NCBI GenBank assembly: GCA_017449025.1
Contig: JAFSKJ010000100.1
Span: 1-40,348, forward strand
Direction of reading: 5' to 3'
Length of the DNA: 40,348 nt
From: Prevotella sp.
Lineage (GTDB): Bacteria; Bacteroidota; Bacteroidia; Bacteroidales; Bacteroidaceae
Every line of letters begins with the position of its first letter. Positions within the stretch are counted from its first letter, which is position 1. Positions 4,013 through 33,184 of this stretch are shown here, piece after piece. The notes beneath the pieces are model-generated. The model worked only from the letters and a program-made list of their open reading frames with translations. It did not search any database and was not told where the DNA came from. The position numbers were made by a program, and so were the translations under genes.

Positions 4013-6775
4013 TTACAGCCCAGCCAGCTCAACCACCTTGTCTACAGCCGCCGAGAGTCCGTCGGCATTCTTGCCGCCAGCCTGTGCGAAGTGTGGCTGC
4101 CCGCCGCCGCCGCCCTGTATGAGCTTGGCGGCCTCGCGCACCATCTGTCCGGCGTTCAGGCCGTGCTCGCTAACCATGTCGTCGCTCATCATGATGGTGA
4201 GCTGCGGCTTCTCGTTGGCCTTGGTGCCGAGCACGCAGAGCAGTGAGACTGAGCCGTCGGCCTGCCCCGCGACTGCTGTGCGTATCTTGAAGGCAAGGTC
4301 CTTGGCGGCGGCTGGCTCCAGGGGCATGACGCTGGTAATTACCTTTACGCCGTTCACCTCGCGGGCCTTCTCCACCAGTTGCTTGGCGAAGCGCTCCACG
4401 GCCTGTGCCTGGAAGGTCTCTATCTCCTTCTTCATGCTGTCGTGCTCCTCAATGTACTTGCGGATGACGCCCTGCAGGTCCTTGGCGTTGTTGAAGAACG
4501 ACTTCACGGCCTTCAGCGTGTCCTCGATGCCGTAGAGCATTTCCTCGCACTCCTTGCCCGTCTTGGCCTCTATGCGGCGTATGCCTGCTGCCACGCTGGC
4601 TTCAGACAATATCTTGAAGAATCCTATGCGGCCCGTAGAGGTGGCGTGGATGCCGCCGCACAGCTCGCATGAGGGTCCGAACTGTATCACGCGCACCTTG
4701 TCGCCGTACTTCTCGCCGAAGAGTGCTATGGCTCCCAGCTTCTTTGCCTCGTCCATGGGCATGTCTCGGTGCTCGTCGCGGTGCAGGTCCTGGCGTATCA
4801 TGTCGTTCACCAAGCGCTCCACCTCTCGCAGCTGCTCGTCGCTCACCTTCTCGAAGTGTGAGAAGTCGAAGCGCAGGGTGTCGGGACTGACGAACGAGCC
4901 TTTCTGCTCCACGTGGTCGCCCAACACCTGCTTCAGGGCGTAGTCCAAGAGGTGGGTGGCTGTATGGTTGGCAGCCGAGGCGTCGCGCTTGTCGGTGTCG
5001 ACGCAGGCCATGAACTCTGCCGTGAGGTCTTTGGGCAGCTGCTTCACAATGTGTACGGTCTGGCCGTTCTCGCGCTTCGAGTCTATCACCTCTATGGTCT
5101 CTGTCTCGGAGACGAGCACGCCCTGGTCGCCCACCTGGCCGCCCATCTCGCCGTAGAAGGGCGTGTAGTCGAGCACCAGCTCGTAGAACTCGTTCTTCTT
5201 CTGTGTCACCTTGCGGTAGCGTATGATGTGGCAGGAGTATTCGGAGTAGTCGTAGCCCACGAACTGCTGAAGCCCCCCTTCCGTCCCCCCTTGGGGGGAA
5301 ACTTCTGAGGCGATAGACTCCTCCCCCAAGGGGGAGGTTGGGAGGGGGCTTATCCAATCCCCATTCTCGACGGCGGCGGCATTGCGGGCGCGCTCTTTCT
5401 GCTTCTGCATCTCCATCTGGAATTGCTCTTCGTTGACGGTGAAGCCGTTTTCGCGGCAGATAAGCTCGGTGAGGTCGAGGGGGAAGCCGTAGGTGTCGAA
5501 CAGGCGGAAGGCCTGTGCTCCGTCAAGCTCTGTCTTGCCTTCGCTCTTCATCTGCTCCATGGCCTTGTCTAAAAGCGAGATACCCTTGTCCAAGGTGCGC
5601 AGGAAGGCGTCCTCTTCCTCCTTCATCACCTTGGCTATGAGCGTCTGCTGCGCCTTCAGCTCGGGGAAGGCATCGCCCATCTCGTCGACAAGCGTGGGCA
5701 GAAGCTTGTAAAGGAAAGCCTCCTTCTGTCCGAGGAACGTGTAGGCATAGCGGACGGCACGGCGCAGGATACGCCGGATGACGTAGCCGGCCTTGGCATT
5801 AGAGGGCAGCTGGCCGTCGGCAATGGAGAAGGCCACGGCGCGCAGGTGGTCGGCGCAGACGCGCATGGCCACATCAATAAGCCCCCCTTCCGTCCCCCCC
5901 TGGGGGGAAACCTGCTCCTCCCCCAGGGGGGAGGTTGGGAGGGGGCTCCCATATTTTAGCCCCGTAATCTCCTCTTCCTTCCTGATGATAGGCTGGAACA
6001 CGTCGGTGTCGTAGTTGGAGTGCTTGCCCTGCATCATGCGCACAAGGCGCTCGAAGCCCATTCCCGTGTCGATGACGTTCATGGTCAGCTTCTCTAACGA
6101 GCCGTCGGCCTTGCGGTTGTATTGCATGAACACAAGGTTCCATATCTCTATCACCTGCGGGTCGTCCTTGTTCACCAGTTCGCGGCCCGGCTTGCCGTTC
6201 TTCCTCTCTGCCTCCGGTCTGGAGTCGACATGAATCTCCGAGCACGGGCCGCAAGGCCCCGTGTCGCCCATCTCCCAGAAGTTATCGTGCTTGTTGCCGT
6301 TTATGATGTGGTCGGCAGGCACATGCTTGAGCCAGTAGCCGGCGGCCTCGTCGTCGCGTTCCAGGCCCTCCGAAGGGTCGCCCTCGAACACGGTGACGTA
6401 GAGGTCGTCGGGGTTCAGCTTGAGCACGTCAACCAAGTACTCCCACGCCATGTCTATGGCACCCTCCTTGAAGTAGTCGCCAAACGACCAGTTGCCCAGC
6501 ATCTCGAACATGGTGTGGTGGTATGTGTCATGGCCCACCTCTTCCAGGTCGTTATGCTTGCCTGACACGCGCAGGCACTTCTGGGTGTCGGCGCGTCGCC
6601 GTGGCTCCGGCTCGCGCGTACCTAATATTATATCTTTCCACTGGTTCATGCCAGCGTTGGTGAACATCAGTGTAGGATCGTCCTTTACCACCATAGGTGC
6701 CGATGGCACTATGGCATGTTGCTTCGACTCGAAGAAGCTCTTGAACGAGTCGCGAATCTCTTTTGCGGTCATCAT
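4013..6775 (-). CDS. alaS: Alanyl-tRNA synthetase with two in-frame palindromic-element insertions
   Basis: Charges tRNA-Ala and edits mischarged Ser/Gly-tRNA-Ala. At 920 residues it is about 50 longer than the usual 870-876. The N-terminal class II catalytic core is present ([11 protein letters not shown], then SLRV-like [17 protein letters not shown]). The editing domain has [11 protein letters not shown] near residue 600 and CELCGGIHA near 701, which supply the HxxxH and CxxxH zinc ligands. The C-Ala domain ends with [15 protein letters not shown]. The extra length is two Pro/Gly-rich peptides, at about residues 277-299 and 476-502, both reading [11 protein letters not shown]...[11 protein letters not shown]. 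They are encoded by palindromic DNA elements and fall in loops: before the IDVAMRV helix of the catalytic domain, and just ahead of the editing region. The start is MM; the second ATG (6770-6772) is equally possible. No clear promoter lies in the 24-base gap to the upstream esterase gene. Confidence 0.96.
5271..5350 (-). repeat. Palindromic element copy 1, inside alaS (80 bases)
   Basis: On the plus strand the left arm starts AGCCCCCCTTCCGTCCCC and the right arm ends GGTTGGGAGGGGGCT. The arms are imperfect inverted repeats, and each has its own inner palindrome (CCCCCTTGGGGG / CCCCCAAGGGGG). The alaS reading frame passes through without a stop and gives [11 protein letters not shown], then SIASE, then [11 protein letters not shown]. 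It is 12 bases longer in the centre than copy 2, so both keep the same frame. Confidence 0.93.
5880..5947 (-). repeat. Palindromic element copy 2, inside alaS (68 bases)
   Basis: Same family and orientation as the element at 5271-5350. The left arm begins AGCCCCCCTTCCGTCCCC and the right arm ends GGTTGGGAGGGGGCT. The inner palindromes here have CCCCCTGGGGGG and CCCCCAGGGGGG centres, so both arms share a CT/AG centre whereas copy 1 has TT/AA. In the alaS frame it encodes [12 protein letters not shown] followed by [11 protein letters not shown]. Confidence 0.93.
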
Positions 6776-14347: not shown

Positions 14348-14591
14348 CGAAAAAAGGTTTAAACGAACGGATTTCTCGTAAGAAATCTGTGGCATCGCCC
14401 CGTTTTTTCAGTCCTTTGCCATGTCAGAGCCCTACATCATCATTCACTTCCCAGTGTCCCGCTGTATCCACTGCCCACATATATTATATGCGGAAGCTTT
14501 GAAATGTGGCGCTTGATGGTTCTTAATCCTTTTTGGCTCATTTTTGCAAGCTCATCTGCTGTAATTTGTGGATTGAAACATTGGGGTCATT

Positions 14592-14674
14592 TGTAGAGTG
14601 GCACTTTACGGCCGTAAAGTGGCACTTAATTTCAAAAAAGTGCCACTTTAGCTCCGTAGAGTGCCACTCTACGG
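14592..14674. repeat. Cluster of GTGGCAC/GTGCCAC inverted repeats
   Basis: Four copies of a GTGGCAC-type core occur, two in each orientation. ACTTTACGGCCGTAAAGT (14603-14620) is a perfect 18-base palindrome. Positions 14654-14674 form a 9-base-arm hairpin around GCC. The two halves also pair with each other across an A-rich loop, so several alternative hairpins are possible. Confidence 0.85.
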
Positions 14675-14847
14675 ATGAGCCTCGATGTTTCACGGTCGAG
14701 AAGTGTAATAAAATTCAGAAAAATGTCGATATTTCGGATAGAAAAAGGGAAAAATGGGGCAGTTTTCGGTGGGATTATTGGGGGTCATCACACGCATTGT
14801 AACCCCTCTCGTAGAGAAAACGGCCAGAAAGGCCAGAAAGTACATAG

Positions 14848-31405: not shown

Positions 31406-32305
31406 TTATTTCTTCGTGATGGGCACCACGTAGACGCTGCCGTCGCGCATGGTGAACACCACCATTGAGCCGTCGGCCGACACGGTGATGTCCTTGAAGA
31501 TGCTGGGCATGCCGTCTTTGCCGTCCTTTCCGTCGGCCGATACTCCCAAGTCCTTCCACGCCACACCGCCATCGGTTGAGATCTCCCAGTGGTGGGTGAC
31601 ACTGTTGATGCGCACCTGCGGTATTACCACCGATGTGCCGGGGTCGTCCTTGCCGTCCTTGCCGTCGACGCCGTCCTTGCCGTCAACACCGTCCTTGCCG
31701 TCGGTGCCGTTGTGGCCGTCCTTGCCGTCGACGCCGTCCTTGCCGTCAATACCGTCCTTGCCATCTTTGCCGTTGTGGCCGTCCTTGCCGTCAACACCGT
31801 CCTTGCCGTCCTTTCCGTCAACGCCGTCCTTGCCGTCCCTGCCGTCAACGCCGTCGATGGCTCCTGCGCGCATGCGCTGTCCGTCGCCGTCGAGCAACCA
31901 CTCTCCGTTAAGCACCCAGTAGTAGAAACCGTCTTCGCCCTTGGCGATGCTTAGGTTTACCTCGTTTATCACCTCTCCGTCGTCGCCGCGCTCACCGTCC
32001 TTGCCGTCGCTGCCGCTACGTATGGTTACCGGCTCTCCGTCGCCAAACAGCAGCGTGTAGCTGCCGTCGGTGTTCTTCACCACATTGGTAATGTGGTCGT
32101 GGCCCTCAAGGGTTACGGCAATCTGCTTCAGGGCGTATATCTCCTCGCCCGCCTCGAGCGCCTTCTTCTCAAGCTCCTCCACACGGGCACCCAGGTCGCG
32201 CAGGTCGTCGCCGTATGCGTCGCACGCGGTCAGCTGCCATGCTCCCATGGTGAGCAGAGCCGCCGTAGCTGCCGTTGAGGCTATAGTCCTTATTCTCTGT
32301 TTCAT
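31406..32305 (-). CDS. Collagen-like surface lipoprotein 2 (DUF4988/PL29-N-like)
   Basis: A 299-residue lipoprotein. The lipobox QLTAC puts the Cys near residue 28, followed by DAYGDD. A short coiled coil comes next (LGARVEELEKKALEAGEEIYALKQ, in two pieces about 36-60), then a small beta unit (HITNVVKNTDGSYTLLFGDG) as in DUF4988 (PL29 lyase N-terminal) domains. FYYWVLNGEWLLDGDGQRMR leads into about 23 uninterrupted Gly-X-Y triplets (GKD, GVD, GHN), from about residue 148 to 218. A C-terminal beta module (WEISTDGGVAWKDLG and VVFTMRDGSVYVVPI) ends the protein. No lyase domain is present, so it looks structural. The gene is a paralog of the one 15 bases upstream and is last in the ompA-type operon. 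Confidence 0.83.
   Translation of the reverse strand: MKQRIRTIASTAATAALLTMGAWQLTACDAYGDDLRDLGARVEELEKKALEAGEEIYALKQIAVTLEGHDHITNVVKNTDGSYTLLFGDGEPVTIRSGSDGKDGERGDDGEVINEVNLSIAKGEDGFYYWVLNGEWLLDGDGQRMRAGAIDGVDGRDGKDGVDGKDGKDGVDGKDGHNGKDGKDGIDGKDGVDGKDGHNGTDGKDGVDGKDGVDGKDGKDDPGTSVVIPQVRINSVTHHWEISTDGGVAWKDLGVSADGKDGKDGMPSIFKDITVSADGSMVVFTMRDGSVYVVPITKK
31643..31860 (-). repeat. Tandem-repeat DNA encoding Gly-X-Y tract 2
   Basis: Degenerate 9-base units (plus-strand GCCGTCCTT and variants) encode about 23 Gly-X-Y triplets without proline. Third-codon variation (GTCGAC, GTCAAC, TTTGCC) makes the array imperfect. This is coding repeat, not CRISPR. Confidence 0.9.
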
Positions 32306-32320: not shown

Positions 32321-33184
32321 TTAGTTTGTTGACTTAAGAGGAACGCTGAACACAACGCCGTTGCTCAGCGTGAACGTTACAGAGTCACCTTCTGTGGTGG
32401 TGGTGATGACCACCGACTGTATCAGCGAGTCGGCGTCCTTGCCGTCATTGCCGTCCTTGCCGGTGGCAGGGGTGCCCGTGGAAATCCATGTCTTGCCTTC
32501 GTCTACGGATATTTCCCAGATGCCGGTCTCGCTGTTTATGCGCAGCTGCGGCGACACGGCCTTGCCGTCCTTGCCGTCCACACCGTCTTTGCCGTCAACG
32601 CCGTCTTTGCCGTCCTTGCCGTCGACTCCGTCCTTACCGTCGACGCCGTCTTTGCCGTCCTTACCGTCGACACCATCCTTTCCGTCAACGCCGTCCTTGC
32701 CGTCTTTGCCGTCGACACCGTCCTTGCCGTCCTTTCCGTCAACGCCGTCCTTGCCGTCTTTGCCGTCCTTGCCGTTTGCCCTCAAGCGCTGTCCGTCGGC
32801 AAGTATATACTGTCCGTTGAGGGTCCAGTACCACTGTCCGTCGGAGTCCTGCACTACAGAGATGTCGGGAGCCTGTGCGTCGCGGCCCTTCTCGCCTTTC
32901 TCTCCGTCCTTGCCGTTCTTGATTACTATGGCTCCTTGCTTGGCAAAGGTGATTATGCAACCCTCGTCGTTGCGTGTAACATTGGTTATGTAGTCGCCAT
33001 CGTCAATGGCATCGATGATAACCCTTATTGACTCGATGTCCGAATTAACCCGTTTCACGAGGTTCTCGAGCACAGTCACCCTGTAGTCCAAGGCATCTAT
33101 CTCGTCCTGGTAGTCGGTGCACGACTGGAATGCTCCGCCCATCATGGTCATGGCGGCGAGCAATAATATTCTCACTGTTTTCAT
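32321..33184 (-). CDS. Collagen-like surface lipoprotein 1 (DUF4988/PL29-N-like)
   Basis: A 287-residue lipoprotein and paralog of its downstream neighbour. GGAFQSC gives a lipobox with Cys near residue 22, followed by acidic TDYQDEID. A short coiled coil (LDYRVTVLENLVKRVNSDIE) and a beta unit with YITNVTRNDEGCIITFAKQG come next. GKDGEKGEKGRD is a short collagen-like lead. WYWTLNGQYILADGQRLRA precedes about 24 Gly-X-Y triplets (GKD and GVD only, no Pro), from about residue 137 to 208. The C-terminal module has WEISVDEGKTWISTG and VTFTLSNGVVFSVPL. The coiled coil may act as a trimerisation domain for the collagen helix, which I infer from the order of parts. It lies 42 bases after the OmpA-family gene, with no promoter between. 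Confidence 0.83.
   Translation of the reverse strand: MKTVRILLLAAMTMMGGAFQSCTDYQDEIDALDYRVTVLENLVKRVNSDIESIRVIIDAIDDGDYITNVTRNDEGCIITFAKQGAIVIKNGKDGEKGEKGRDAQAPDISVVQDSDGQWYWTLNGQYILADGQRLRANGKDGKDGKDGVDGKDGKDGVDGKDGKDGVDGKDGVDGKDGKDGVDGKDGVDGKDGKDGVDGKDGVDGKDGKAVSPQLRINSETGIWEISVDEGKTWISTGTPATGKDGNDGKDADSLIQSVVITTTTEGDSVTFTLSNGVVFSVPLKSTN
32560..32776 (-). repeat. Tandem-repeat DNA encoding Gly-X-Y tract 1
   Basis: About 24 near-identical 9-base units encode GKD and GVD triplets in higher-order blocks of two and three. It is more uniform than the tract at 31643-31860, suggesting more recent expansion or homogenisation. Confidence 0.9.

Follow-up and report, generated by a model that had tools for sequence, protein, structure and literature searches.

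Copies of a dispersed REPIN-like palindromic repeat family lie in frame in alanyl-tRNA synthetase and other protein genes of Prevotella

The Rickettsia palindromic elements (RPEs) are coding palindromes of 105-146 bp that form stem-loops and are found both between genes and within 19 protein reading frames, guanylate kinase being a tested case (PMC2229807, in the available part of the text). The reference list of that paper also holds a title on protein-coding palindromes of Wolbachia. Intragenic GTAG/CGTC REPs occur in several bacteria, sometimes twice in one gene, and tRNA synthetases of some Proteobacteria are among the genes concerned (PMC3733652, in extract). In the Bacteroidetes, the subclass 2.6 TnpA-REP genes have atypical flanking structures that are copied elsewhere in the genome (PMC6006769, in extract), and the BrickBuilt MITE of Porphyromonas gingivalis is a dispersed small inverted-repeat element within the Bacteroidales (PMC4596501, in extract). 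Coding palindromes are thus a kind of element already known from RPEs and intragenic REPs. A preliminary description of the DNA analysed here had cited no formal account of such an element for Prevotellaceae, and none was found in the open-licence literature; as far as that literature shows, what is new is the Prevotella families and the exchange of families within one loop.

The element lies in alaS of a genome (the host, G000; 134 contigs, 80.65% complete) that gave a single alaS match and that, from the names of its nearest relatives, is probably a rumen or gut Prevotella. The window is the whole stretch of 40,348 nt that was analysed, and its relevant features are as follows.

4013..6775, minus strand: alaS, alanyl-tRNA synthetase (AlaRS), 920 aa; the translation is open throughout, with Pfam domains tRNA-synt_2c, tRNA_SAD and DHHA1
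5879..5947, minus strand: family A copy 1, 69 nt or 23 codons, in frame; site 1, the loop before (I/V)DVAMRV
5917..5947, minus strand: y hairpin unit of copy 1, AGCCCCCTCCCAACCTCCCCCCTGGGGGAGG, from sequence reading and y pattern counts
5270..5350, minus strand: family A copy 2, 81 nt or 27 codons, in frame; site 2, the loop before QQFVGYD
5320..5350, minus strand: y hairpin unit of copy 2, AGCCCCCTCCCAACCTCCCCCTTGGGGGAGG, from sequence reading, with a y pattern match at 5330-5350

The palindrome that the preliminary description had reported inside alaS is there as described, its exact in-frame unit being the 69 nt at 5879-5947; the second copy, at 5270-5350, had been missed. The 23 residues of copy 1 are flanked in AlaRS by GLKYG and IDVAMRV, and the 27 of copy 2 by ENGDWI and QQFVGYD. 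Identity between the two copies is 97% in each of the outer 33 nt and 82% overall, and the 12 nt by which their lengths differ is a multiple of three. Inspection by eye revealed no target duplication at either. The 111 nt around copy 1 fold at -56.1 kcal/mol (z -2.26), and 4 of 200 dinucleotide shuffles were equally stable, a conservative test because shuffling preserves the runs of C and G. Among 268 windows of 90 nt along alaS, the eight most stable each overlap copy 1 or copy 2, and the ninth (4076-4165) overlaps neither. Chance is excluded for the alaS element mainly because it is repeated, both by the second copy in alaS and by 24 y units in the host.

Three other features of the window were noted in passing. 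An inverted repeat at 14584-14681 (44-nt arms, 84% complementary, 10 nt apart), by eye unrelated to family A, contains the window that folds most stably (-50.6 kcal/mol) among the 1342 taken across the stretch. Tandem repeats of 8 bases, of type TTCGATAT/TTCGTTAT, occupy 1084-1171. On the minus strand, 31406-32305 and 32321-33184 encode two adjacent proteins (299 and 287 aa) that have long collagen-like Gly-x-y repeats of the DGKDGVDGK type and a signal-like, Cys-containing N-terminus.

The alaS element is one copy of a dispersed REPIN-like family, called A here, whose full copies in the host share the layout of a y hairpin, a spacer and an inverted z hairpin. The host genome gave 34 matches to the element at E <= 10; the best seven, both alaS copies among them, are near complete, and most of the remainder are about one unit long. 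At one mismatch or less, 41 of the 150 genus genomes carry the y unit AGCCCCCTCCYRRCCTCCCCC; the host is one of them and ranks second with its 24 units (G053 has 50, G140 22, G039 16, G044 14 and G134 11). A control pattern, the unit read backward, found nothing in the host and one match in each of two genus genomes. In the order set the y unit occurs in 18 of 295 genomes, again including the host, and the element found no match in the plasmid and phage collections searched. A search of 5200-6000 against Rfam returned 20 matches up to E 1, all under the gathering scores and taken as chance matches to GC hairpins.

Ten host copies were compared, with cores of 68-84 nt (the one at 68 was shortened by the script). 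Six of them, the copy in metH included, share a non-palindromic spacer of type ACTGTTTG or ACTTTTTG and are 86-99% identical to one another; the metH copy and one outside called genes (C132:29851) agree at 94% over 72 nt, gapless and with the spacer included. A spacer that is not palindromic and is common to unrelated places demonstrates copying between distant places. The other four, among them both alaS copies, are 70-85% identical to any other copy and are therefore older or of other subfamilies; since each alaS copy is only 70-85% identical to the eight others, its arrival was not recent. The copies inspected end in AAGC...GCTT, and the z unit contains CGTC in the alaS copies and CATC or a TATC-like sequence in other copies.

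To see how often the family is translated, 161 y instances (up to two mismatches, duplicates merged) were taken from stretches of five genomes, a selection of those round pattern and blast matches. To count as coding, an instance had to be crossed by an open frame with positive codon-usage scores on both sides. By this definition 27 of the 161 are coding, in 18 ORFs. The Pfam-matched ORFs are given below, gene names other than Pfam names being our reading of the domains.

Host (14 of 35 instances coding): alaS, a SpoIIE-domain protein, a TonB-type receptor, an AraC-type regulator, metH, GH31, an OMP_b-brl_3 protein and GH95
G140 (8 of 27): gltB, priA, prmC and carB
G044 (2 of 16): an OMP_b-brl_3 protein
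G039 (1 of 15): ispG
G053 (2 of 68): an AAA_11 helicase

Pfam domains were thus found in 15 of the 17 ORFs scanned; the scan gave no match for two (in L254 and L288), and the ORF in L270 was left unscanned. Four more host ORFs, outside the 27, span matches to the element: an SDF symporter, two GH43 proteins and a MACPF-domain protein (Pfam). The inserts of metH, carB and prmC lie between domains, and those of GH31, GH95, PriA, IspG, the TonB-type barrel and AlaRS within a Pfam domain. Five of the six reading frames are used by coding copies. The script found an inverted partner unit for 23 of the 161 instances, and core length modulo three did not separate the coding from the other paired copies.

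The insertions themselves are not clean. A search for clean empty sites in alaS, metH, GH31 and an outer-membrane-protein gene yielded approximate ones at best. The sites compared lack native loop residues, and all five relatives that match across the metH linker have a longer one than the host. Simple insertion is therefore not the whole story: either bases are lost on landing or the loop is shortened afterwards. The metH linker of G097 (L322) contains a run of type YESHKTYESHKTYES, apparently a tandem repeat. In the outer-membrane-protein gene, the host has two y units, on either side of one strand, and G044 only the second, from which it follows that units were gained or lost singly. The genes seen at L249, L246 and L284 comprise two paralogous host outer-membrane-protein genes with y units on both sides of one strand and the G044 gene with only the second.

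How far are the AlaRS loops peculiar to the host? In an alignment of 109 AlaRS proteins (30 from genus genomes and 79 of 80 named loci), the family A residues are absent from the loops of every other protein, as the preliminary description had expected. Its statement that other Bacteroidota have a few loop residues here holds for distant Bacteroidales, in which site 1 has about five residues and site 2 is a short turn, but not for near relatives, in which the loops at both sites are longer and very variable. The loop DNA was inspected in 20 alaS genes. At site 1, G051 and G097 carry family B (CCCCCTNTCRTCCCCCGAGGGGGACA type) and G072 carries family C (CTCCCCTCCC..GGGAGGGG type); at site 2, family B is present in G040 and L088, and a further palindrome (TCTCCCCTTAAAGGGGAGA type) in L093. 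Short-repeat arrays, some of them self-complementary, occupy AlaRS loops in L039, L042, L050, L059, L061, L066, L074 and L088 (site 1). By our reading, the z halves of families A and B look distantly alike.

Very stable hairpins are concentrated in these two loops. In 108 alaS genes, 90-nt windows at or below -45 kcal/mol number 8 of 456 at site 1 and 3 of 457 at site 2, or 11 of 913 for both loops pooled, against 5 of 17,480 elsewhere; at or below -40 kcal/mol the same windows give 14, 9 and 65. One of the five genes behind the site 1 windows at -45, that of L095, carries no element, its loop being short and ordinary. The family found is in some cases the one most abundant in the species: G072, whose alaS carries C, has 98 copies of C, and G097, whose alaS carries B, has 56 copies of B, each the highest of the 150 genus genomes. 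This correspondence fails or is weak in G051, which has B in alaS but 8 copies of B and 23 of C, and in G040, where the alaS copy is its single B at one mismatch or less. A loop of GH31 likewise holds A in the host and C in G072, with plain shorter loops in G081, G103, G040 and G083.

Y1 transposase genes are present in the host and in 88 of the 150 genus genomes. Y1_Tnp was the one partner searched for, and the 37 loci examined are a part of all Y1 matches. Families A and B are absent from all 37 at the strict patterns, and a C-like site is present at one (L033); the origin of family A from a RAYT is accordingly unsupported. At up to three mismatches a z-like unit lies about 750 bp upstream at one locus of the 37, L175. 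The Y1 gene of that locus is also preceded, at about 120 bp, by a degenerate y-like stretch, and together the two keep a weak RAYT link open. G039 and G134, which both carry family A, gave no Y1 match in genomes that are 81% and 78% complete. At 19 of the 37 loci the two flanks have 14-base words in common, and the Y1 genes of these Prevotella (L031, L032, L175, L178, L179 and others) are often flanked by palindromes of their own, of several kinds.

Family A has something of several described systems. Like RPEs, it is a long stem-loop palindrome with copies between genes and in frame within conserved protein genes, and the likeness that the preliminary description drew to in-frame RPEs is supported by a repeat that is multi-copy, outside genes and within conserved enzymes. 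The likeness stops short of a clean insertion, native loop residues being lost, and intragenic palindromes are known well beyond Rickettsia. At 68-84 nt against 105-146 bp, family A is shorter than RPEs; its host belongs to another phylum, and the two are set side by side by description and not by sequence. The exchange of families in one loop is absent from the account of RPEs in the available part of PMC2229807. With REPs and REPINs family A shares palindromic units of 20-40 bp, many copies and frequent inverted pairing, but it ends in AAGC...GCTT without a constant GTAG or CGTC end tag, and, unlike the repeats of a RAYT, it does not flank the 37 Y1 genes examined at the strict pattern. The subclass 2.6 TnpA-REP genes are from the same phylum as the host, whose own Y1 genes are flanked by palindromes other than A. 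Family A has terminal inverted repeats, as MITEs do, but BrickBuilt contains a minisatellite (PMC4596501, in extract), which by description sets it apart. Family A thus appears to work like an RPE and a REP and is best filed under neither of these nor under MITE; we regard it as an analogue of RPEs rather than a demonstrated homologue.

The best reading, to which we give a probability of roughly 0.72, is that these are selfish palindromic repeats tolerated in exposed loops of proteins. Transposition or hairpin copying would carry copies to many places in the genome, and those in genes would survive only if they leave the frame open and lie where the protein can accommodate an exposed loop rich in Pro, Ser, Gly and Glu, often at surface loops and domain joints. 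The two alaS loops would repeatedly receive palindromes, often of the family common in the species concerned, and element and native loop would later be trimmed in three-base steps. The element would then be a translated, mostly neutral spacer and no regulator. Wide copying followed by purifying selection fits because copies lie both in and out of genes, coding copies use several frames and alaS hairpins fall mostly in the two loops.

The presence of differing families in the AlaRS and GH31 loops of differing species, and the position of the metH, carB and prmC inserts at domain joints, could also mean that the inserts are selected, with an mRNA hairpin or an encoded flexible linker slowing translation or aiding folding at domain joints and with families recruited to the same loops. 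This is unlikely: strong hairpins are absent from these loops in most of the aligned AlaRS, the loops are also filled by ordinary sequence of many different lengths, and the inserts of GH31, GH95, PriA and IspG lie inside domains. Tolerance is the simpler account of the pattern. A related and speculative suggestion, which we rate as improbable yet somewhat less so, is that the two AlaRS loops and the one GH31 loop are standing docking sites for differing palindrome families across Prevotella species, whether by a shared insertion preference or by selection for a co-translational hairpin or linker at domain joints, beyond tolerance alone.

It is distinctly unlikely that transposition played no part and that the palindromes grew or were converted in place, by replication slippage, template switching or gene conversion between scattered GC hairpins. 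In other species the same AlaRS loops are indeed filled by short tandem arrays, some of them self-complementary, family A has no linked transposase at the 37 Y1 loci with the strict pattern, and target duplication went unseen at the two alaS copies. But the spacer shared by unrelated places, with 86-99% identity over the whole unit, needs copying between places. GC palindromes are hard to assemble and the genome is a metagenome-type assembly in 134 contigs, 80.65% complete, but an assembly artefact is highly improbable given that neither alaS copy nor any other coding instance interrupts its frame, that G000 and G044 share an insert at one place of the outer-membrane-protein gene, and that 41 of the 150 genus genomes carry the family.

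The inserts described here extend the range of in-frame palindromic repeats to gut and rumen Prevotella, where many genomes are available for comparison. They also carry a warning, in that differences in the length of AlaRS, MetH and PriA in Prevotella can be repeat insertions and not domain evolution. The succession of differing families in the same loops provides a natural series in which neutral passengers may be weighed against a source of new protein loops. Scattered hairpin repeats appear to keep supplying new loops to the core proteins of these bacteria.
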